Source: a virus
IMG/VR virus record: IMGVR_UViG_3300033064_001760
Location: 1 to 27,905 of that record
Direction: 5' to 3' (one strand)
Length of the DNA: 27,905 nt
This document shows, piece after piece, positions 754-23,604 of this stretch. The notes under the pieces were generated by a model, which saw only the letters and a list, made by a program, of their open reading frames with translations, did not search any database and was not told the DNA's origin. Position 1 is the first letter of the stretch. Every line of letters starts with the position of its first letter. A program made the translations under genes and the position numbers.

Positions 754-1185
754 TTGTTGCCAGTGAACACTGGTAGAATATTCCAAGTCCTTCAAATAGA
801 TCCCCAGATAGCCCGGATCCCAGCTGAGTTAGATGCCTCTGGAGTCCCGGGTAAAATTACAGATCTGCACAAAGAAGCGAAAAGATGCTTCCGCAAATTG
901 GCTATGCGAATCCACCCAGACAAGGATGGATCTGGTAGCGAATTCAGGATCCTGAAGGAAGCCTATGAAGCATCCAAGCTGATAGGATTAGAGTATCGTG
1001 AACCGGGGAATTATGTTGGGATTGTTTTTGGCACAAGAGATCTGGAAGTAGTAGATGGACGTAGCAGCTGGGCATGGATTAAAAATGCCCGGGGCTGGCG
1101 CATAGGGTACACCAGACACCCGGGCTGGGGACATGACACACGGAGTTCCACGGACGTTAGCCATCGTCCCCCTTTTATTACTTAA
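754..1185 (+). CDS. J-domain (DnaJ-like) protein
   Basis: The protein has 143 residues and an intact HPD motif at residues 54-56, preceded by a basic amphipathic helix (LHKEAKRCFRKLAMRI) and followed by KDGSGSEFRILKEAYEAS. That is helix II, HPD loop and helix III of a J domain. Helix I (GRIFQVLQID) is separated from helix II by an unusually long insert of about 18 residues. J domains stimulate the ATPase of Hsp70/DnaK, so a host DnaK is the expected partner. The C-terminal 60 residues (tryptophan- and glycine-rich) match nothing I recognise. The start is uncertain: TTG at 754 or 757, or GTG at 763, with only a weak AGG upstream. It is the only plus-strand gene, and its last 8 bp overlap the convergent glycosyltransferase gene. 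Confidence 0.8.
   Translation: MLPVNTGRIFQVLQIDPQIARIPAELDASGVPGKITDLHKEAKRCFRKLAMRIHPDKDGSGSEFRILKEAYEASKLIGLEYREPGNYVGIVFGTRDLEVVDGRSSWAWIKNARGWRIGYTRHPGWGHDTRSSTDVSHRPPFIT
1152..1179 (+). terminator. Possible weak intrinsic terminator of the J-domain gene
   Basis: GGACG at 1152-1156 and CGTCC at 1165-1169 are perfectly complementary around an 8-base loop. They are followed on the plus strand by CCC and a T-rich tract (TTTTATTA) ending at about 1180. The stem is only five base pairs and sits inside the last codons of the J-domain gene, just before its stop and the convergent gene's stop. The position fits a terminator, but the stability is marginal. Confidence 0.3.
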
Positions 1186-4100
1186 ACAAAGCTACATTCC
1201 CTTTTGCAAGTTCCCATGTAGGATCTGCAGCCAAAGCACGTTTAAAGAAATTCAATGCCAGATCCCTATTAGAATCCATATAGATACATCCCAAATTATT
1301 CAGGGAATATTTATTGTTAGGATCCAGATCTATAGAAACCCGGTATGATTCCATCGCTTCAAACTGTTTCCCCAGAGCACCCAGAGCAGCACCCAATATT
1401 TGGTGATACTGTGCATCCATTGGATCCTGTTCGATAGCCTTCACAATAGCATCATGGCATTCCTGCCACTTTTCATTTTCCTTACACTCTACAGCAAGCT
1501 CATAGAAATTATGCCCAGTGGGATTTTCATCTGCCTTCAGTTTCCCGAGCTCCAGATACAATCCTCTCCTGTGCTTTTCCTTTTCCGGGGAAGATCCAGT
1601 ATCACCCAGATTGAGAACAGAGATCTTTTCCTGATATGATTCATCTATGATCAGCCCAGCATCCTGCATAGAGTAGATAACAAGCTCATGCACGGGTAGC
1701 GTATGCTTAACCTGTGGCATGTTCATGTAGAGCCTCACAGTAGGGGTAGGGCAGTGATAGGGATGCCCGTTCGATAGAGGTAGATCCTCTGGATCCAATG
1801 GACGGGAATCTGTGGTAGCAAAATCACCAAGATTATCAGATAGATTTTTCTGAGTGATTACAAAGCCATGAGCTATTCCATCTTTTATAGCTTCCAGAAT
1901 ATGCTCTTGGGATCCCGGGGTGAGAACTTCATCAGCATCTATTTCCAAGATCCATTCATGCTTTGCATATCCAGTCATTTCATTTTTGGCATAATCAAAC
2001 CTGAAGGGATAATCCCCCCGGGTGTAAACTGCAGCACCATGCTCCTGAGCGATAGCTACTGTTTGATCTGTGGAATGATCATCCAGAACTATAATCTCAT
2101 CAGCGATGCCTGAAATACTGGAAATGGCATGACCTATATTGTCCTCTTCATCCCGGGCAAGTATGCAGACTGAGATCCCGGGGAGTAGATCTTCTTTTAC
2201 CCGGTTGGTATGGACATAATACAGGAAGTGATTTACCCGGTAGGCTGTATCATCTACACCCCCCAGAGCCATAATCTCTTCCTCAGTAAAGCCGGGATTT
2301 ATGTGCTGTGGATCATCGTCATTCACGATACCGAATCCACCGAACCTGTGGGGAGTTGACATAATCAAAACACCATTTGGATTCAGCAGGGATTTTAGAT
2401 CTTCAATAAACTTCCCGGGACGTAATACATGCTCCACAACTTCATTAGCCATAATAACATCATAGGTTCGTTCTACTACTTCTGTGATCCGGCTGGCATC
2501 GCCGTGGATCCACGTTCCCCAGTCAAAGGCATTTTCAGCGACTTCCAGAGCAGCTTCTGATAGATCTACTCCAGTTAGATCCTCATAACCCTGATCATGG
2601 ATCCCGTTCAGCATTCCACCAGACCAGCATCCAACATCCAGAACACTCACAGATCTATCTGCAGGGAAGTGCTTTAGGATCTCTGGGAATCTTACCCCCA
2701 TTGTAGATCCATCTGTATAATCATCCACCTTATCTACAGAATAGTATTTCTCTACATTCTGATAAAAGGATCTGAATAGCTCTTCATCAGCTGGAGTAAT
2801 ATCGCCCGCACGGATCCGGAACTTGGCAGATCTCATATTCCGCTCAATGATCACTTTTTCATCTATTGCATCCAGCAGATTTGTAACAACATCATTCCAC
2901 TGAAAATTCTCTTGGATCCAAAGCCTTCCTGCCCAGCTGAATGAATTGAATTGATCCAATCCGTTCTGGATCTGATTGATCCTCTGGATCATTGCTGTGG
3001 CTATATCCTCATCCGTTTGATCAAAGCTCCGGACTACAAAGCCTGTTTTTCCGCTCTGGATCTTCTCTGGGAGAGCTCCCAGTGCTGTAGTGATGGGGAC
3101 ACATCCTGCACCCTGAGCTTCCAGTGCAATCATGCAGCACGTTTCTGCAAAGGTAGATGGGTAGATCATGAACATTGATTCGCTCAATACCTTCATGAGC
3201 TCCGGACGTGGAATAGTTCCGTGATAAACGACACCCGGGGTATTCCTTGCCTGCTCATAGAGATCTTTGAACTGGGAATCATCGCCTTTATAAACACCCA
3301 GATCTGAATATACATGGATCTCTATTCCGGTTTCTTTGTAGATCCGGGGAGCCATAACCAGCAGCTTATCCAGTCCCCTGAAGGGAGTAGATGCATACAC
3401 TGCTTTCTTTTCCTTTGCACCGGGTAATACTTTGGGGATTGTATCCAGATCTACCCCATCTGTGGATACTATGATTTTCTCCACAGGCACACCCATTTTC
3501 AGGATCTGCATTTTATGATATTCTGAAACCACGATGAACGTATCAAAATATTCATTGCTCTCTGGGGATCCCAGTGGATCCATGTGAGCCTGATCGATAT
3601 CATCAGATAGTTTTAGGTGTTTGAATTTGCAATTTGTGTAAACAGTCATTGAGGGGATTCTGCTGCAGATGAAGTGCTTTGATTTGTAGCGATTGAGCTC
3701 TTCAGCACTCTTAACCTGTATGAATCTCACACCAGCATATCCACCACTGTTCACATTGCCACACATTGCTACCCTGAAGCCACGTTCAGCGAGTATCCGG
3801 GCATGGTATATCAATGCTGTTTCAGATCCGCCTAATGGCTCTGTTTCGATGCTGTCTGGTGAGATCAATGTGCTGTTCACCCAGAAGAGGTAATCCCATT
3901 CCTGATCATCCCCTGCAAAGATCTCAGAGGGGTTTGGATTCAATCGTTCCAAAATATCAGCTGATTGCTGCAGATCCACTTCAGTAAGCTCTGGTTTTAG
4001 ATCCATCTGCTCAATGTTCATAGCATCCGAAACAATCTGATTTACATACTTCTGAGCCACCTCACCCTGATCATGCTGCCTTGCTCTGGATTGCTTCCCT

Positions 4101-5083
4101 GAATATGCACGTTTTTTAAGCCTGAGCTTTTTCACAGCAGCTGCAGCCCATTCATCCTGCACAGCTGGATCCAGTGGATCCCCGGGGATACAGATCCCCA
4201 CTTTATTCAATATCTCTGGAGTTGCACCTGTGGGGGATGTAATAACATCCAATCCCAGAGCCAATGCTTCTACATGAGTCATTCCAAAGGTTTCATTAAA
4301 CTCCATCATAGGACATAACATCAGCCTGAAATCAGCCATATACTCCCAGAGCTCATGATGGGGACGTGATCTAAGGATCTGAACATCTGCAGCCTTTAGA
4401 TCCTTGTAGATCTGTTCAGCCTCTTCACGGATGTAATCCAGTGAATTGTATAAGCCCAGAGGATCCTCTGAATTATAGTTCCCCAGATCGTATGCCATCA
4501 TGTGAAGTTCAGCATCTGGTTCCAGCTTTTTAATCTTTTTGAATATTGGAGCCAGATATTTAGCAGATCTCTCCGGACGTGAAATATTTATGATCTTTTT
4601 CCCAGAGGGTTTCCCCGTGAAATGATTTTCAATAACCTCTACTGAATTACAGGGATCTCCGATCGTAACCAGATCATCCTGCAGCAGATCATGGAAGCGA
4701 CCAAGTATATCATTCCTATGCCATTCTGAGAGCACGATATACTTCAGGTTTGGAATGTCCCGGGTAGCTGGTATCAGCTGATCGTATGAGGGGGAAATAT
4801 TGTGGAGCCAGATGTAATTGGGCTGATCCTTCAGGAAGATCTCTGCAGGGAAACATTCTACAGCGATCAAAGCATCCCATCCGAATAGCGGATCATGCCG
4901 ATCCAGAGAATGCCATCCCAGTGATTCACGATCCACTTCACCAAAGAAGTGACAATCATGCCCGAGATCATTGAGCGATTTCCACAAATTAACAGATGAG
5001 ATCTCAGTTCCACCTATTGCATGTTCTTTTACCCGTTCTGGGCTGTATGGAATTGGAGCCATGTGATAGATTGCTATTTTCAT
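1178..5083 (-). CDS. Multi-enzyme fusion: two GT4 glycosyltransferases, SAM methyltransferase, GT2 glycosyltransferase and TPRs
   Basis: This 1301-residue protein has five recognisable modules. Residues 1-350 are a GT-B fold family 4 glycosyltransferase (GGTE at 24-27; E264-x7-E272 donor-binding motif). Residues 395-740 are a second GT4 (LGGSET at 417-422; E647-x7-E655). Residues 760-960 are a class I SAM methyltransferase (motif I DVGCWSGG at 816-823; GVDLSEAAL near 838). Residues 970-1180 are a GT-A family 2 glycosyltransferase (DDHSTD at 1001-1006; DADE at 1049-1052). Residues 1193-1298 are about three TPR-like repeats. All visible catalytic motifs are intact and no signal peptide is seen, so it should be cytoplasmic. 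Its start lies one base beyond the stop of the preceding coiled-coil gene (5085-5390), and it is downstream of the fibre genes. I infer sequential glycan building, with capping by methylation, on a virion or host-surface acceptor. The acceptor is unknown. Confidence 0.9.
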   Translation of the reverse strand: MKIAIYHMAPIPYSPERVKEHAIGGTEISSVNLWKSLNDLGHDCHFFGEVDRESLGWHSLDRHDPLFGWDALIAVECFPAEIFLKDQPNYIWLHNISPSYDQLIPATRDIPNLKYIVLSEWHRNDILGRFHDLLQDDLVTIGDPCNSVEVIENHFTGKPSGKKIINISRPERSAKYLAPIFKKIKKLEPDAELHMMAYDLGNYNSEDPLGLYNSLDYIREEAEQIYKDLKAADVQILRSRPHHELWEYMADFRLMLCPMMEFNETFGMTHVEALALGLDVITSPTGATPEILNKVGICIPGDPLDPAVQDEWAAAAVKKLRLKKRAYSGKQSRARQHDQGEVAQKYVNQIVSDAMNIEQMDLKPELTEVDLQQSADILERLNPNPSEIFAGDDQEWDYLFWVNSTLISPDSIETEPLGGSETALIYHARILAERGFRVAMCGNVNSGGYAGVRFIQVKSAEELNRYKSKHFICSRIPSMTVYTNCKFKHLKLSDDIDQAHMDPLGSPESNEYFDTFIVVSEYHKMQILKMGVPVEKIIVSTDGVDLDTIPKVLPGAKEKKAVYASTPFRGLDKLLVMAPRIYKETGIEIHVYSDLGVYKGDDSQFKDLYEQARNTPGVVYHGTIPRPELMKVLSESMFMIYPSTFAETCCMIALEAQGAGCVPITTALGALPEKIQSGKTGFVVRSFDQTDEDIATAMIQRINQIQNGLDQFNSFSWAGRLWIQENFQWNDVVTNLLDAIDEKVIIERNMRSAKFRIRAGDITPADEELFRSFYQNVEKYYSVDKVDDYTDGSTMGVRFPEILKHFPADRSVSVLDVGCWSGGMLNGIHDQGYEDLTGVDLSEAALEVAENAFDWGTWIHGDASRITEVVERTYDVIMANEVVEHVLRPGKFIEDLKSLLNPNGVLIMSTPHRFGGFGIVNDDDPQHINPGFTEEEIMALGGVDDTAYRVNHFLYYVHTNRVKEDLLPGISVCILARDEEDNIGHAISSISGIADEIIVLDDHSTDQTVAIAQEHGAAVYTRGDYPFRFDYAKNEMTGYAKHEWILEIDADEVLTPGSQEHILEAIKDGIAHGFVITQKNLSDNLGDFATTDSRPLDPEDLPLSNGHPYHCPTPTVRLYMNMPQVKHTLPVHELVIYSMQDAGLIIDESYQEKISVLNLGDTGSSPEKEKHRRGLYLELGKLKADENPTGHNFYELAVECKENEKWQECHDAIVKAIEQDPMDAQYHQILGAALGALGKQFEAMESYRVSIDLDPNNKYSLNNLGCIYMDSNRDLALNFFKRALAADPTWELAKGNVALFK

Positions 5084-13306: not shown

Positions 13307-14374
13307 TTACTCCGTTACACTCACTGAACCGATTTTGGGAAGAGAGTATGCACCCACTGCCACATTTGAAGCAGGGATGAATGCAGATCTCCGCATATCT
13401 GATACACCCAGACTATTATTCACCAGACTGTAGAGATCACTGAAATCCACATCAGTTCCCCAGTCCCATTCTCTATAATCCATATACAGCTGGAGATTCG
13501 TGATCACGTTATCCCGAACTGCATTAATATTGTAACCAGAATATAATATCACTTCTGAAGTGATATTTACCAAAGTCCATGTAATGTTCAGACATACTAC
13601 CACAATCCCCAGAGGGGCTTTGTGCTGGATGGATGCTGCCATCGTGGATAGTTGGGTATCTGTGAAGAGCCCGCCATTATTTCGTAGGCAGTGAACCACT
13701 ACAGTTTTCTGGGAATAACTGGGGTGATTAATCTGAGGCTTTGCCCGGATCAGTTCAGTATGAGATTCCTGTGCCCAGCTTTCATAGCTGGCTTCTATTC
13801 CCTGTGATAAGGTTGCCAGCTGAGTGATCGCCCGGTTCCTGAGAAGTTCATCAGATTCCTGATCATATCCGCCTATGGATGGGGTATCATTTGATACAGT
13901 AGTAAGCCCAGATACAATATCCACCATAACTGAGATCTGATTTGCCTTGATCATACTTGAGGATCCTGCAATAGTTGCTTGGCATGAGAGAGTGAGCTTC
14001 CCGTTTGCTGCGAGTGTAGATTCCTCAGTAGTGGCATACTCTTGCCCGGATGGAGTCCCCACCTTTGTCCCCAGTGGGATCGTAGTGCCTGCTACACCGC
14101 TAAAAATCACAGGGACGGTAGAGAACGATGCTGCTCTCCGCTTCATGGATCTGGGAGCTACAGCAAGTTCTAAATCATCGCCATTTGCAAGCATGATCCG
14201 TGCGGATCTGAATACTTGGTGAACATTGTAATACAGCTGTGCAAGCTGGGCTGATATCGCATTGAACAAAGCCCGCGCTACTCCACCTTTGTTAAAATTA
14301 GTGATACTGGAAGTATTATTCCGTGACCACTCAATCATTTCAGACATAATTTTTGTACGTGTTTTGATTATCAT
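13307..14374 (-). CDS. Baseplate J-like protein (baseplate wedge, gpJ/gp47-like)
   Basis: This 355-residue protein has the family hallmark near residues 95-118 (AGTTIPLGTKVGTPSGQEYA), in which a Gly-rich turn leads into a beta domain. This is followed by GLTTVSND with SIGGYDQESDELLRNRAI, the conserved G..(E/D)..ESDEELR region near 155-185. These are the standard landmarks of the baseplate J family (P2 gpJ, Mu gp47). Its role is a structural wedge protein of the baseplate. The start overlaps the upstream gp25-type gene by 4 bp (ATGA), implying translational coupling. Later in-frame ATGs exist but have no better ribosome-binding site. Confidence 0.9.
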   Translation of the reverse strand: MIIKTRTKIMSEMIEWSRNNTSSITNFNKGGVARALFNAISAQLAQLYYNVHQVFRSARIMLANGDDLELAVAPRSMKRRAASFSTVPVIFSGVAGTTIPLGTKVGTPSGQEYATTEESTLAANGKLTLSCQATIAGSSSMIKANQISVMVDIVSGLTTVSNDTPSIGGYDQESDELLRNRAITQLATLSQGIEASYESWAQESHTELIRAKPQINHPSYSQKTVVVHCLRNNGGLFTDTQLSTMAASIQHKAPLGIVVVCLNITWTLVNITSEVILYSGYNINAVRDNVITNLQLYMDYREWDWGTDVDFSDLYSLVNNSLGVSDMRRSAFIPASNVAVGAYSLPKIGSVSVTE

Positions 14375-17249: not shown

Positions 17250-18622
17250 TTCATACTCCCTACAAAGTCCATCCCGGCTTTGTATAGCTTTTCCCGGGTA
17301 AAAGGATCCATTCCACGATCCACTGATATATTGCTCATAAACGGCTTCCCATAAACGTATTCATTTGATACTGCAGTGATGTAGTATTCCATCCCTGTAG
17401 CCGGGCGAATAAGTTTATCCCCGGCGCGAATATTTGGAGCTCCCCGCACAGTGAGGTTACCAGCTTCATAGCGATGATTATCCCGGTTCCAGAGATAGAG
17501 CTTATTCCTGTAATACTTATATTTGTCCAGAGTAGATCCTTCCACCACTTCCCCATCACTGCTGAGGGGGATGTAGCTTAATCGCTCTGTTTTGTCCCGG
17601 GTTCCGATCTCATGCACCAGATCTGAATCTACCAGAGGGGGAAACGTGGCATATTCGCCATCAGAACCAGTGAAGCGATCTCCGGGGAGAACACTAAACA
17701 CTGAGAACCCAGTACCATGCTGAACGGCAAGATTTTCACCCCGGATCAGATCTTCAGTAATGATATGCCCATTCTCTCCATCGATCCAGTTAGTTATTTC
17801 ATTCCAGCCCACTGTAATAGATTCGCCGTTTGGGTTTATGGCTGTCTCAGGATCCAGAACGCTGTATGGGGTAGGTCTGGATCTCAAATACATCTTCCCG
17901 CCTTTACAGTCAGTCCACAGTTCATTGAAGGGAGCCCGGATATATTGAGTGAAGTAATCCCAGATAGTTCCACTGTATGGAGATAGCTGGCTGCTGAATA
18001 GCAGTTCATCTTCACGTACAAATAACTCTGATTCCAGATCGATCCAATCCTTCAGGGATCCGTTCTTTAATTGGATATCCAGACCGGGCAAGGTTTTGGC
18101 TATCTGGAGCACAGCTTCATAAATAGGTTTCTGGAAGAAATCGAAAGCGATATCCCCCTGCTGTAGTTCTAAATTCTTTTGTTTGAGCTCCCCAGTTAGC
18201 CCCAGAGCATTCTCAAAATACTTAACCAGATCAAATATCCAGATAGCTCCCAGAGATCGCCCTGTGAGTGTTACGGATCTCTGGACACCCTTCGGCATGA
18301 TCACTTCAGATTTCGCTACTCTATCAATGATCCCCAGCATGGTAGTTTCTTTGCCATCCAGTTTGATATCCACAACATCCAGAGGCTGCAGCAGAGCGTA
18401 GTAAAAGGGCTCTATATCAGAGGGCTGTGCTTTGAACCAGACCAATTCGATCGTAAAAGTGCCATGAGCGGAATTAGTGGATCCATCTGTATTCACTTTT
18501 AGGATATGCTCCACAGGATGAATCACGCTTGCACCTTCACCGCCTATACCAAAATCTCTTGTTTGCTTGGTATGAAACGTCAATGCTGGTGCTGGATTGC
18601 GTTTTGTGAAGTGATTAGACAT
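17246..18622 (-). CDS. Baseplate hub protein (gpD/gp27-like)
   Basis: The protein has 458 residues. Beta-rich N-terminal domains (ALTFHTKQTRDFGIG; LDVVDIKLDGKETTMLGIID; VTLTGRSLGAIWIFDLVKYF) match the first beta-barrel of the gpD/gp27 late-control/hub family, including the GRSL-x6-D segment typical of that family. Later parts include IWDYFTQYIRAPFNELWTDC and a C-terminal domain with a GNLTVRGAPNIRAGDKLIRP turn. This is the adaptor that joins tube and spike. It overlaps the tape-measure stop as TAATG and is followed directly by the spike, matching the usual tape measure-hub-spike order. Confidence 0.85.
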   Translation of the reverse strand: MSNHFTKRNPAPALTFHTKQTRDFGIGGEGASVIHPVEHILKVNTDGSTNSAHGTFTIELVWFKAQPSDIEPFYYALLQPLDVVDIKLDGKETTMLGIIDRVAKSEVIMPKGVQRSVTLTGRSLGAIWIFDLVKYFENALGLTGELKQKNLELQQGDIAFDFFQKPIYEAVLQIAKTLPGLDIQLKNGSLKDWIDLESELFVREDELLFSSQLSPYSGTIWDYFTQYIRAPFNELWTDCKGGKMYLRSRPTPYSVLDPETAINPNGESITVGWNEITNWIDGENGHIITEDLIRGENLAVQHGTGFSVFSVLPGDRFTGSDGEYATFPPLVDSDLVHEIGTRDKTERLSYIPLSSDGEVVEGSTLDKYKYYRNKLYLWNRDNHRYEAGNLTVRGAPNIRAGDKLIRPATGMEYYITAVSNEYVYGKPFMSNISVDRGMDPFTREKLYKAGMDFVGSMN

Positions 18623-20637
18623 TATTGCCCAAAGCTCCCGCCTAATCGTCCAAATTGTCCAAAGCCTGTCAGTAAGTTATCCATAAAGCTGCCACTCATT
18701 AACCGGCTAAATGCTGCTTCGTCCTTAGTTGGGGGGAGCCCATTCAAAACTCTCTGGGCTTCATCAGAATCCAAAGTGGTTCTGGCAAAAGCGATCACAG
18801 CATCATTCATCATACTGGCTGCTCTCTCAAAGGCAGTTGCTGCAGATTCGATCTTACCGATCTCCCCGGCTATTGCTGCCTGCTGGGTTTCAAAGCCAAA
18901 AGTATCTCTGAAGGAAGCTATACGCTTATTGAAAGCATCTTCACCGTCCTTCAGCCCTGCCCTAATTGATTCAGCAATCAGTTCAGCTTGGGTTTTTGGT
19001 GTATCCTTTGGATCCCCGGGCTGAGTAGAGTCCCGTACAAATTTCTTCTCATCATCAGTTAGATCTGAGGATGCTCCAATAAATTTTGCAAATTCTGATT
19101 CAGACATTTTCCCAATATCCGGTAACTGATCCCCAAAGCGTTCCATGAGCTCTACCAGAGAGTTCATTGCCTTATCTGGGTTATAGAGTTCAGCCATCTG
19201 CAGACGGTTCCCAGACCACTTTTTAAGCAGGAAGGATTGATCCCATCTGGTTCTCTCAATATCCTTGCCCGCTCCAGTTGCCATATCCCGAGCCATAGCA
19301 AAAAATTCAGATAACATCCGTGGATCCGCCATGCCCTGTTCCTGCAATGCAGTAACTTCACCGATCGAAAAATTCTGCCCGCCACGCTCCATAATCCGGA
19401 GAGCAGCTTGGAATCCCATTCCACCAGTTGCCATACTATCATGCAGCCCACTCAGTACATTGCCACCACGGGATCCCCTGAAGGGCTCTCCCATCGATCC
19501 GAACAGCCCGGCATACCGAGATATCATCCCGGGATCCTGCATCGTTACAGCTGTCTGTATGACACTCTCAGTAACACCCATGACTTCCTGCAGGAATTCT
19601 GGCAATCTTGCTACACCGATCCCAGACATAACACCTTCAGCGATCGCTTGCTTCAGGATCGTGGGATCTGATACTGTTTCATATCCAGTTTTGCCCTGCC
19701 TTGCTACAAACCCGGTAGAATCTGAGTTATCGATACCAAAGGCTTTTCCCAGTGATATCGTTTCCTGAATATCCAATCTTCTCTGGGTGTAATCACCAGC
19801 ACCAGCACCTAAGATCCGCATCCAAGTCTTTTCCAGACCAGCAAGCTCAGTGAGTGTTGTGGCTGTAGTCAAAGCTACAGCTTCAAAGGATTCTCTGAAT
19901 GCCTCAGCATCCTGTGGGAGAAGTTCAGAAATAGCACTGATCTCAGTGAGATCCTTCAGAACATCCTTATAGGATCCCCAGCCTTCCTGAAGAGCCTGAA
20001 CACCTTTAAATGCAGCATAACCCACAGCACCGACACCCAGCCCGGTAGCGAGTTTTGCACCCGTTCCCATGCCAGCCATCTTCCGGGTTATTGCTGAAGT
20101 AGCACCTTGAACTGCTCCTGTAGCCAGTCCACCAGCACCGCCCCGCATTCCAGATTGAGTGAGATCCCCAATCATTCCAGCGGATTCACGTTCAGATGGA
20201 TCATAGATCCCACGATCCAGAGCCCATTGTTTTGCAGATGCAGATGATTCAGCGTTCCGGGTTGCATCGTCTATGGCTCCAGTTTTTACTCCATAGATCT
20301 CAGCTTGGATCCGCTTCAGTTCGCGCTGCTTTGTGCCCTTATCCCTGCCACTGGAAGAGGATACTTCATTCCGTGCCAACTTCTCTTCATGCTGGAGCTC
20401 AGACATTCTGGCTTTATTCTCAGCCTGCTCCAGCTGGCGAATAAGCTGCAGCTGATCATTCAGGTATTTGTTTTGCTTCTTTAGATCTTCCGGATATTTC
20501 TGGGCAGCCTCTGATTTGATTTCATTAAACCGAGAAAAACCCTGTGATGCCAGATCCATAGCCCGGGTTTGTTCAGCAAGTTCCTGCTTCCCGGTTACTC
20601 TGGTTCCCACATTAATTTGGATATTTTGTTCAGGCAT
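18622..20637 (-). CDS. Tape measure protein
   Basis: The protein has 671 residues. Residues 35-125 form a charged coiled coil. Residues 155-215 form a Gly/Ala-rich hydrophobic stretch (GLATGAVQGATS, GAKLATGLGVGAVGYAAFKG), the membrane-active type of segment typical of tape measures. A long, mostly helical C-terminal region follows. Position between the chaperone pair and the hub confirms the assignment. At the customary 0.15 nm per residue, 671 residues would give a tail of about 100 nm. This is an inference, not a measurement. GAGGA precedes the start. No peptidase or lysozyme domain is visible. Confidence 0.85.
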   Translation of the reverse strand: MPEQNIQINVGTRVTGKQELAEQTRAMDLASQGFSRFNEIKSEAAQKYPEDLKKQNKYLNDQLQLIRQLEQAENKARMSELQHEEKLARNEVSSSSGRDKGTKQRELKRIQAEIYGVKTGAIDDATRNAESSASAKQWALDRGIYDPSERESAGMIGDLTQSGMRGGAGGLATGAVQGATSAITRKMAGMGTGAKLATGLGVGAVGYAAFKGVQALQEGWGSYKDVLKDLTEISAISELLPQDAEAFRESFEAVALTTATTLTELAGLEKTWMRILGAGAGDYTQRRLDIQETISLGKAFGIDNSDSTGFVARQGKTGYETVSDPTILKQAIAEGVMSGIGVARLPEFLQEVMGVTESVIQTAVTMQDPGMISRYAGLFGSMGEPFRGSRGGNVLSGLHDSMATGGMGFQAALRIMERGGQNFSIGEVTALQEQGMADPRMLSEFFAMARDMATGAGKDIERTRWDQSFLLKKWSGNRLQMAELYNPDKAMNSLVELMERFGDQLPDIGKMSESEFAKFIGASSDLTDDEKKFVRDSTQPGDPKDTPKTQAELIAESIRAGLKDGEDAFNKRIASFRDTFGFETQQAAIAGEIGKIESAATAFERAASMMNDAVIAFARTTLDSDEAQRVLNGLPPTKDEAAFSRLMSGSFMDNLLTGFGQFGRLGGSFGQ

Positions 20638-20665: not shown

Positions 20666-21121
20666 TTAAGGTAGGTCGAATCCCAGTTCGTCTTTGACCG
20701 TCTGGGCAAAATCATCATCCACATAGTCGGTCTGATCGGATCCATCAGGGATCGTCATTTCAGCACCACACCGGGGGCAGTAGGTTGAATTTGGATAAGG
20801 GGCTCCCATGAAATCGCATTCCGGGCAGTGCGGGACACTACCCTTTTGCTGTGCATCACGTTCGCGCTGGATGCTCTGCTGGATCTCATATTCTACGAGA
20901 ATTCCCTCATCTGTCATTTCCAAATAGCGCGGATCAGTAGGTGGGAGATTGTATTTCTCCCTGAACCAGATACGATGCCAATTAGCTTTGATCTGGGCTT
21001 CAGCCAGATCCCTGTAATCAGTCTCCGGTATCTCCTGATCCATCGGCTGCATCGGATTTGGGTTGCCCGGGAAACACTCCGGACTTTTCAGCCCAGAGCC
21101 CCCATACTTCATCCAATTCAA
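20666..21121 (-). CDS. Tail assembly chaperone, second frame (zinc-ribbon extension), probably made by frameshift
   Basis: The frame is open from about 21127 to 20666 and overlaps the preceding chaperone gene by about 100 bp. The only potential starts near its beginning (TTG 21121, ATG 21112) lack a Shine-Dalgarno sequence. This supports expression as a C-terminal extension of the upstream protein, as with G/GT-type tail chaperones. Downstream of the slip site it adds about 144 residues: an acidic helical region, then a zinc ribbon (CPEC at 99-102 and CPRC at 118-121 of the open frame) and an acidic tail. In lambda, P2 and Mu the equivalent long product binds the tape measure. The fused product would be about 243 residues. 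The frameshift is inferred, not shown. Confidence 0.7.
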   Translation of the reverse strand: MNWMKYGGSGLKSPECFPGNPNPMQPMDQEIPETDYRDLAEAQIKANWHRIWFREKYNLPPTDPRYLEMTDEGILVEYEIQQSIQRERDAQQKGSVPHCPECDFMGAPYPNSTYCPRCGAEMTIPDGSDQTDYVDDDFAQTVKDELGFDLP

Positions 21122-21395
21122 CTTTTGTCAAATTTTTAAAGCCCTTCCAATCATCAGAGGGGGCTTTTACTAATCTGCCATCCAATTCGCACATACGGTT
21201 TATCCGCCATGCAGCCATCATTTCATTCACATCAGGGGAGCTCACCATTTGACCATATAAGCCATTGGTGATTGTGCTCCGCCTTACTGCGATATCTGAT
21301 TCCTGTCCTATCTTCAGTTTATTGTTGAAAATAAACGTCCCGGTAGAACAGGAAACAGTAGTTTGATCTTCGATCTTTTTCACTTTTTCAGTCAT
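21018..21395 (-). CDS. Tail assembly chaperone, first frame (gpG-like)
   Basis: This 125-residue protein lies between tail tube and tape measure, the standard position of the short tail-assembly chaperone. It has a beta-rich N-terminus (residues 10-45), helices around 50-70 and 85-103, and an acidic Gly-rich C-terminus. An AAGGA and an AGGGA precede the ATG. Its last third overlaps another open frame by about 100 bp, matching the known G-GT arrangement in many phages. No specific sequence family is obvious, so the call rests on position, size and overlap. Confidence 0.65.
   Translation of the reverse strand: MTEKVKKIEDQTTVSCSTGTFIFNNKLKIGQESDIAVRRSTITNGLYGQMVSSPDVNEMMAAWRINRMCELDGRLVKAPSDDWKGFKNLTKVELDEVWGLWAEKSGVFPGQPKSDAADGSGDTGD
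21097..21105 (-). other. Candidate -2 ribosomal frameshift site in the chaperone overlap
   Basis: On the minus strand, a run of five G lies between T and CTC. In the first frame it is read as TGG GGG CTC (Trp98, Gly99, Leu100). If the glycine tRNA on GGG (21101-21099) slips back two bases it re-pairs perfectly with GGG (21103-21101). The next codon, GGC, is then in the second frame. The second frame is +1/-2 relative to the first, and -2 slips are known in Mu-type tail chaperones. A +1 slip at the CCC-GGG codons further downstream is a possible alternative. Confidence 0.5.
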
Positions 21396-21418: not shown

Positions 21419-21853
21419 CTATGGAGTGATCATTGGTTCGCCATACTGCCCGGAACCATTCTGCGTAACAATAGCATTCTCACCTACAGTAATGCTAAGA
21501 TTTGACAGGATGCATCCGTGTATGGTTGCAATGTTCGCTTTGGTATATTTATCTTCGATAATTACCGAAAAGCCTTCTTTGGTAAGGATCGCTCTGGATA
21601 CAGCAGCAGCATCCTTCCCGGCACGTTCTGCATACTGCAGTTCCGAAATTTTCTCAGATGATAATACAAGTTTTGAGAAGTTGAATGTTCCGCTGAAGCG
21701 TAATGCTACCAGTTCCTGCGGAGTGAGGTTCCCAATGCCATAGACACCTTGCACCCCATAATCTTCGTTCTCTGTGATATTGGTTAAGACACCAATTTTA
21801 GTGCCCTCAAAGGCTACGTGTACCCTTGCACCGTGTACTACTTTACCGCTCAT
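21419..21853 (-). CDS. Tail tube protein
   Basis: This is a 144-residue beta-rich protein (MSGKVVHGARVHVAFEGTKI, then NITENEDYGVQGVYGIGNLT). Its strands, an interrupting helix (LSSEKISELQYAER) and a C-terminal beta hairpin fit a tube protomer that stacks in hexameric rings. Size and position (after the sheath, before the chaperones) are diagnostic. AAGGAG precedes the ATG. It is probably expressed at high level with the sheath. I see no decoration domain. Confidence 0.8.
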   Translation of the reverse strand: MSGKVVHGARVHVAFEGTKIGVLTNITENEDYGVQGVYGIGNLTPQELVALRFSGTFNFSKLVLSSEKISELQYAERAGKDAAAVSRAILTKEGFSVIIEDKYTKANIATIHGCILSNLSITVGENAIVTQNGSGQYGEPMITP

Positions 21854-21879: not shown

Positions 21880-23604
21880 TTAAAGCACGGCTATAGATTC
21901 AATTAAAAAGAAATTGAACGGGTTATTGATTCTGAATGAGACTTTTACGCTCCATCCATCTTCCAGACGTGATGCCACGATATTTTCCCACGATGGCAAA
22001 ATGTTATCTGGATCCGAATCATTCTCAGCTATAACACCTTCAGCTTCTTTGGTTTTACAGTACCCTTCCACAAAGCCCACGATGGTAGCGTATCCTACGC
22101 CGACTGTTCCACCAATGAAGATACGATCAGCTGCTACAGCTAATCCTTTGTTAAAGTCTCCTGCAGATCTCATCAGGGAGATCTCTGGGGATGCATTGGA
22201 TGCCGTATCCCAGAGGCTGGCATTGTTCTGCATTGTGTTAATGCCCTGATTAATAACAGTGCCAATCCCACCCATATCCCGGGGGCAAATAACTCCACCA
22301 CGGATAAAATCTTCACGATCAGTTTTGCCAAAATCATACTGCAGACCTTGACAGCTAAACACCTTCCGGGTAAGTGGCTGCTGGACTGGAAGCCCAGCTG
22401 CTAACCCAGCGACTTTTGCTGCAAAGAATTTAGGGGCAATGGTTTCTACCCCGGATCCATCTTCTGCGAATTCTTTAATCCCACAAGCTACCAGAGAACC
22501 GTAAGGGGTATTCATCAGCTTTGCCTGTGCCAATGTAGTGCTTTTTGCGAGTGCAGCTGTAGCCTGTGAAGCCATCCCAAAATAACCTTCACGGAAATAT
22601 GAGTGAGCAGCACAATGGGCAGTAACCAGAGCATGATCTGCTGCAGTCTCTGAGTCTATCCAGAGGATCTGAGCATTTGCCTCTTCAGCTAACACTAATG
22701 CAGCTGTGATCTCTGCAGTATCCATCGCTGGAGCAGCCCCAGAGGATAAGAATTCAAACCCTGTGGTATTGGAAAGTTTGGTTCCGGGGGTTACTACTGT
22801 GAGATCTACAAACGCGCTAAAGTTATCCAGAGCGTGTTTTGAGATGTAGGGATACCCCTGCAGCACTAAAGCAGCAGATTTCACATCGCCTTCAGCCAGT
22901 GTATTCAAAATGGTACTGTTCAGAGTACCTACACCAGAAGGGGCATTTGCATATATTGTGCAATCCCAATCATCCAGAGCATTGATAGCAGCTGCTACCT
23001 TGCTCACAGTATTGTAACTGGCAAGAGCAAAATCGAAATCAAATTCCACTACCTCAGAGGCAGCGACACCAGCAGATCCTATGATATGATCCCCAGCAGT
23101 GATCTCCAGTAGTCCTGAACCCAAAGCACCTACATATTGGATTGAGAGTGCCAGATCCAGATAATCGAAAGTCTCTGTTTCTCCTGCAAATTTTACAGTG
23201 ATTTTGGATCCCGCTGCGAGTGTAGCAGCTTCGATCTTCACCGAGATCCCATTCACATAGGTTCCATAATCCTTAGAATCCACAGTTCCACTGGTTCCAT
23301 CAAAGGATCCTTTCACGGCTGCTTGTGCCCGGATGAATCCCACGTATGGGGCTCCAGCATGAAACTGGGATGGATTGAAGAGATACCCCATTGCACGTAA
23401 ACTGTCACCAGCACGGAGCACATCAGCTGCCTGCCCTTTGTCCGTGAACCAGTTTATTTGATCTGGTGTACCACCTTCACTTGCACCGATAACAATTACC
23501 CGCCCGGTAGCAAGTGGATTTGCCCGGGGGGTAACTCCCACCGTGAATTTCGATTTAGCCTGTGGCTCGACTAAAATTTGGTTGTCAAACTTCTGTTGGC
23601 TCAT
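21880..23604 (-). CDS. Contractile tail sheath protein
   Basis: The protein has 574 residues. The N-terminus (TVGVTPRANPLATGRVIVIG, then ASEGGTPDQINWFTDKGQAADVLRAGDSL) is the typical opening of sheath proteins, in which an early strand is donated to a neighbouring subunit. Residues about 110-270 form a variable, beta-rich protruding insertion. The middle (LVLAEEANAQILWIDSETAAD, HALVTAHCAAHSYFREGYFG) and the C-terminal region (PRDMGGIGTVINQGINTMQN; EDGWSVKVSFRINNPFNFFLIESIAV) match the sheath core, with a terminal strand that swaps into the next ring. AAGGAG precedes the ATG. This gene defines the particle as contractile. Confidence 0.92.
   Translation of the reverse strand: MSQQKFDNQILVEPQAKSKFTVGVTPRANPLATGRVIVIGASEGGTPDQINWFTDKGQAADVLRAGDSLRAMGYLFNPSQFHAGAPYVGFIRAQAAVKGSFDGTSGTVDSKDYGTYVNGISVKIEAATLAAGSKITVKFAGETETFDYLDLALSIQYVGALGSGLLEITAGDHIIGSAGVAASEVVEFDFDFALASYNTVSKVAAAINALDDWDCTIYANAPSGVGTLNSTILNTLAEGDVKSAALVLQGYPYISKHALDNFSAFVDLTVVTPGTKLSNTTGFEFLSSGAAPAMDTAEITAALVLAEEANAQILWIDSETAADHALVTAHCAAHSYFREGYFGMASQATAALAKSTTLAQAKLMNTPYGSLVACGIKEFAEDGSGVETIAPKFFAAKVAGLAAGLPVQQPLTRKVFSCQGLQYDFGKTDREDFIRGGVICPRDMGGIGTVINQGINTMQNNASLWDTASNASPEISLMRSAGDFNKGLAVAADRIFIGGTVGVGYATIVGFVEGYCKTKEAEGVIAENDSDPDNILPSWENIVASRLEDGWSVKVSFRINNPFNFFLIESIAVL

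Follow-up and report, generated by a model that had tools for sequence, protein, structure and literature searches.

A putative +1 frameshift site, UUU_C, in the tail assembly chaperone genes of a clade of large contractile-tailed phages

How is the second of two overlapping frames between the tail tube and tape measure genes of a phage translated, and at which nucleotides would ribosomes enter it? The question arises in the IMG/VR virus record IMGVR_UViG_3300033064_001760, of which positions 1 to 27,905 were analysed (the window hereafter means this whole stretch of 27,905 nucleotides). A sequence-only reading of this DNA had placed here a tail chaperone pair joined by a -2 slip on a run of five G. 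From the comparison of related sequences, we conclude that the pair is very probably expressed by programmed +1 frameshifting at a UUU_C located downstream of that run.

The overlapping frames and their proteins

The minus strand carries all large genes near the overlap, and the features around it are the following.

21880-23604, minus strand: sheath (phrog_279)
21419-21853, minus strand: tail tube protein (phrog_985, E 9e-24, and by its position after the sheath)
21018-21395, minus strand: G ORF, the short tail assembly chaperone in the zero frame, 125 aa (ATG at 21395, stop at 21018)
20666-21127, minus strand: T frame, stop to stop, +1/-2 relative to G (open from 21127, stop at 20666)
20766-20830, minus strand: C4 zinc ribbon of T (HCPEC ... 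CPRCG), inserted only in the wider group around the window
18622-20637, minus strand: tape measure protein, 671 aa, assigned by position, with the same order in cultured relatives
13307-14374, minus strand: baseplate J protein, with further tail genes between it and the tape measure

The overlap noticed earlier between tube and tape measure is real: the window ORFs share a stretch of about 107-110 nt, and T lies in the +1/-2 phase of G, as had been stated. The order of tube, G/T and tape measure was also found in PHB04, Dolphis, ST4, Touem01 and Mecenats66. In the neighbourhood of the tail module and on the same strand, a 1301-aa ORF (1178-5083, minus strand) has glycosyltransferase and methyltransferase matches.

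The identity of the pair as tail assembly chaperone G and G-T was borne out by its position between tube and tape measure and by the chaperone family matches of its relatives. For the window's own G, no direct match to named chaperone families was obtained; it was linked to the G proteins of relatives by profile comparison (hhalign probability 95.9), and the G and T proteins of these relatives match phrog_25000, phrog_1038 and phrog_15939. G aligns with phrog_25000, annotated as tail assembly chaperone, over positions 33-124 and T over positions 123-192, so that this family covers G followed by T in a single fused protein whose junction lies at the proposed shift site. Neither G nor T obtained a usable family from Pfam or NCBIfam; in a PDB sequence search, G had no match and the only rows for T were weak ones to enkurin, judged to be chance.

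G and T were folded apart, not as the fusion. The AlphaFold model of G has a pLDDT of 88, and its order ends near residue 107, at Phe108. The top VIA-align row for this model is the HK97 tail assembly chaperone 2ob9 (Z 4.1, rmsd 7.1, 87 residues aligned), a match that is weak alone, and its BFVD matches include several tail assembly chaperones, the best (E 1.9e-5) being to an unnamed phage protein. For the model of T, no fold match was convincing. T contains a conserved core, WFREKYNLPPTDPRYL, which is common to the relatives and follows the pattern W-F-R-x-K-Y-N-L-P-P-T-D-P-R-Y-L. The zinc ribbon that had been seen in the extension is present in T of the window and also in that of L120, L124-L127, L076 and L077, and is missing from most relatives.

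Relatives and the position of the proposed shift

An IMG/VR contig with 100% identity to the window sequence exists, and three further contigs (L002-L004) share 78-85% protein identity with the window and retain both frames. Cultured relatives, phages of ~90 kb, were found via tblastn: Touem01, Mecenats66, Dolphis, Jeremy, PHB04, ST4, phiT5282EW and fHe-Yen8-01. A DNA search of phages using the window and a first protein scan of genome contigs each gave no match. Scanning IMG/VR and bacterial genomes with alignments of T and G yielded about 200 loci in total, many of them duplicates, and 106 non-redundant loci were left once near-duplicates had been removed. These loci were collected through protein homology to T or G, without use of the TTTC motif; in each, G and T were located by profile HMM, the frames were recorded, and motifs were looked for only afterwards, the downstream TTTC being taken where one overlap held two in frame. 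The tree of the loci is deep, with a support of 100/99 for the clade of the window, L002 and L120.

T was found in the +1/-2 phase in all 106 loci, on which basis a -1 frameshift of the X_XXY_YYZ type was rejected. The -1 frame was seen only in the distant L187/L188, which are excluded from the 106, and L115 was too short to judge. L187/L188 (~2900-2935) are high-GC relatives whose G carries a classical G_GGA_AAA at its end; with T in their -1 frame, the shift direction varies within the T family. Related chaperone loci were also observed in genomes of Geminicoccus, Nitrosomonas, Microvirga, Novacetimonas, Methylovulum and others (L192-L202); all of them read TTT CGN, and they are probably prophages.

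The relatives bear directly on the slip that had been proposed first.

21099-21103, minus strand: five-G run, proposed -2 site, not conserved

According to that proposal, tRNA-Gly slips by -2 on TGG GGG CTC (21104-21098), as in phage Mu gpGT. The pairing is possible and the frame fits, the predicted length of about 243 residues is arithmetically right (243 aa, with a junction different from that of the 242-aa +1 product), and phage Mu provides a natural -2 case of ~2.2% (PMC3498833). Loss of the run in relatives that keep both frames had been set beforehand as refuting this slip, and L002-L004, which keep both, read TGG AGG GCG in its place; the run is absent from L120 as well. Only 3 of the 106 loci have GGGGG in the -35..-16 region, and in 25/106 the T frame is closed by a stop between the G-run position and TTT, so that a shift at the G-run position would terminate there. 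G runs are also common in the window, where GGGGG occurs 46 times against a mean of 69 in shuffles, and the run is therefore not notable. A -2 slip at the run was rejected as the conserved site because the run is not kept in relatives, and we regard it as very improbable in the window itself. What stands of the earlier reading is a predicted frameshift product that would enter the +1/-2 frame; its direction and site give way to a conserved UUU_C fitting a +1 shift, ~24 nt downstream.

A second -2 slip, in which tRNA-Lys would move from AAG to AAA at a GAAAAG kept in the window and L002, where GAAAAGTCC is identical, is hardly credible. Only 17 of 72 loci have AAAAG in the 30 nt preceding TTT, and L120 has no GAAAAG-type sequence in its open T frame; this candidate was rejected since the sequence is not conserved.

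A shift must fall between the last T-frame stop and the stop of G, and the overlap limits across the loci therefore bracket it, to codons -2..+2 around TTT. The T frame opens closest to TTT in L125 and L126, 5 nt upstream, and the closest G stop is 9 nt downstream of the first TTT base, in L125, whose whole overlap (3001-3017) is the 14 nt ACG TTT CAA CCT TAA. In L120, which reads ATA TTT CCC, a T-frame stop lies 8 nt upstream of TTT, and thus no site upstream of it could work there. L062 (2988-3014) represents a natural swap of the shift site: TTT AGA stands in place of the canonical site, which is lost, and a new TTT CGT, just within the open part of the T frame, lies seven codons further upstream.

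We also considered T as a separate protein, translated by coupling from an internal start, either ATG 21112 or an ATG further downstream. Ahead of the core, the window does contain a TTG (21121) and three ATGs in its T frame, and T is annotated as a separate short gene in public records. These candidate starts have no obvious ribosome-binding site, and in 19 of 99 loci, L120 among them, ATG, GTG and TTG are all absent ahead of the conserved core. A start with even a 4-nt Shine-Dalgarno match was found in only 5 of the 70 loci of the first set, the public T starts remove conserved sequence (Dolphis gp20), and an internal start leaves the invariant TTTC unexplained. On this survey of start codons and Shine-Dalgarno matches, internal T starts were rejected, and a separate T is in our judgement extremely improbable. 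The earlier statement that the second frame has no credible start of its own is fully true in the 19 loci and has to be qualified in the window by the TTG and the three ATGs.

The UUU_C site and its context

The features of the preferred +1 site are listed below.

21071-21074, minus strand: candidate UUU_C shift site (TTT at 21074-21072, Phe108; C at 21071 would be skipped)
21069-21074, minus strand: putative P- and A-site codons UUU CCC (A site CGN in 103/106 loci, CCC in the window and L120)
21077-21080, minus strand: GGAG, weak Shine-Dalgarno-like element 2 nt upstream of UUU, of putative function
20669-21395, minus strand: predicted G-T fusion, 242 aa, from a +1 shift at 21074-21071

In all 106 non-redundant loci, the window included (GTG TTT CCC, or GUG_UUU_CCC), the overlap holds a G-frame TTT followed by C. 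While TTTC occurs within the overlap in the G frame of 106 loci, it is found there in the T frame of 15 and in the third frame of 7; upstream in G, frame 0 is not favoured (38, 49 and 77 in frames 0, 1 and 2). At other positions of G and T only 37% of the Phe codons are TTT, and in loci of >60% GC this holds for 56 of 234. Per-locus codon use predicted TTT at the site in 39/102 loci against 102/102 observed, although the codon-bias tests assume independent loci and, because the loci are related, their figures overstate independence.

The A-site codon of the 106 loci is CGC (43), CGA (34), CGT (25), CGG (1), CCC (2, the window and L120) or CAA (1, L125). CGG, at 1 of 103 CGN loci, is scarce compared with 23% of the CGN codons elsewhere in the G/T genes (~2e-10 after UUU; binomial, 99 loci, treated as independent). 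Its near-absence could result from a constraint on the T frame, where CGG puts a glycine, or could be related to the tRNA-Arg decoding CGC, CGA and CGU. The codon before TTT is TCC or TCT in 58/106 loci, and many of these phages therefore carry UCY_UUU_CGN. The window, which has an in-frame UUU_C and a second ORF in +1 with an A site that is not CGN, is a variant of the UUU_CGN +1 class and not a strict member.

Upstream of UUU, at a distance of 6 nt, most relatives have AAGGAG, and the codons of this pair are biased: AAG makes up 50 of 52 Lys codons and GAG 71 of 78 Glu codons, compared with 54% and 45% elsewhere. The hexamer resembles a Shine-Dalgarno element, and it may play a role in the shift. 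The element of the window comprises only four bases (GGAG), and in L120 a GGAG stands three bases before UUU; both spacings are close to that of the Shine-Dalgarno element of RF2. A downstream stimulatory RNA structure was sought in 12 loci, and z was near 0 in all except L125 (-3.6) and PHB04 (-1.6). The strongly folded downstream RNA of L125 is perhaps a different stimulator.

We propose that most ribosomes would make the 125-aa G. In a minority, peptidyl-tRNA-Phe would stand on UUU (21074-21072) in the P site while the A site is empty and slowly filled, the slow codon being CCC in the window and CGC, CGA or CGU in nearly all relatives. At 11 per thousand in the window's genes, against 3.6 for CGC, CCC is not rare. 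Since tRNA-Phe reads both UUU and UUC, it could move by +1 without a mismatch, slipping one base from UUU to UUC at 21074-21071; the slipped ribosomes would continue in the T frame from 21070, and the fusion would join ...EKSGVF to PGNPNP.... By analogy with lambda gpG/gpGT, coating of the tape measure may fall to G and recruitment of the tube subunit to the T part. The shift of ribosomes at UUU_C, its efficiency and the role of the fusion in assembly are what we infer from the conserved sequence.

In the window, a +1 slip could also take place one codon later, with tRNA-Pro moving from CCC to CCG (CCC_GGG). The sequence-only reading had itself named the downstream CCC-GGG as an alternative site, and the conserved UUU_C adjoins it. 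CCC_N is a known +1-prone tetranucleotide. CCC and UUU are named as next most slippery in the PRFect text, and the CCC common to the window and L120 could mark a site that has moved by one codon. However, the sister L002 has TTT CGC, without CCC there, and no option other than UUU_C is shared by all 106 loci, so that we consider a slip on CCC unlikely. As slippage at UUU_C and at CCC_G gives the same 242-aa protein, protein sequencing would not separate the two.

Known frameshift systems and significance

The pair resembles the lambda gpG/gpGT type (PMC5009743) in its position between tube and tape measure, in its short and extended proteins and in a T without its own start. Lambda-type chaperones mostly use -1 shifting on X_XXY_YYZ (PMC5009743), whereas the frame in the window needs +1 (or -2); for Pakpunavirus, a -1 site, GTTTTT, has been described (PMC12846349). 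Phage Mu gpGT is likewise the tail chaperone of a contractile-tailed phage and reaches the same frame (PMC3498833, PMC5009743), but it does so by -2, while in the window group a -2 site is not conserved and the conserved site fits +1.

In bacteria, UUU_Ynn is known for its particular tendency to shift by +1 (PMC5009743), and UUU_C or UUU_CGN is the site of influenza PA-X and has been proposed in amalgaviruses (PMC3498833, PMC5052127). With UCC_UUU_CGU of influenza A PA-X (PMC3498833), the phage loci share UUU_C, a CGN A site and UCC or UCU in the E site (58/106). They also share the lack of an evident 3' structure, and CGG, to which a change from CGU halved PA-X shifting (PMC3498833), is rare in them. 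The window group differs from PA-X in its bacterial ribosome, DNA phage genome and upstream AAGGAG, and the window further in its CCC A site. The UUU_CGN +1 sites of plant amalgaviruses (PMC5052127) are similar in that two ORFs overlap at the motif and the second is in +1, but these are eukaryotic RNA viruses that express a polymerase and use all four CGN codons. The +1 shift of bacterial RF2 (prfB) has a Shine-Dalgarno-like element just upstream of the slip as well, whereas the phage chaperone site has a sense codon.

The literature searched yielded no description of UUU_CGN in phage tail chaperones, and an earlier mention is possible. We think it likely that AAGGAG-N3-UCY_UUU_CGH is a new bacterial +1 signal for tail chaperone expression in a large clade of ~90 kb contractile-tailed phages and related prophages, that it has converged on the PA-X site, including the near-exclusion of CGG, and that the window belongs to a derived subclade with a CCC A site. 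The UUU_C +1 class was reportedly predicted by Firth et al. 2012 from eukaryotic viruses, and the phage loci would add to it a bacterial, widespread case with restricted A- and E-site codons.

For the annotation of this phage group, in the public records of L010-L015 T appears as a separate short gene whose start trims conserved sequence (Dolphis gp20, for example), and the T halves of PHB04, Dolphis, ST4, Yen8-01 and other public genomes would accordingly be wrongly started genes. For the mechanism, the question becomes accessible to reporters in E. coli, a host whose tRNA and ribosome genetics are easy to work with, and more than 100 natural variants reveal which A-site codons (CGC, CGA and CGU, hardly CGG) and which upstream element would be under selection.
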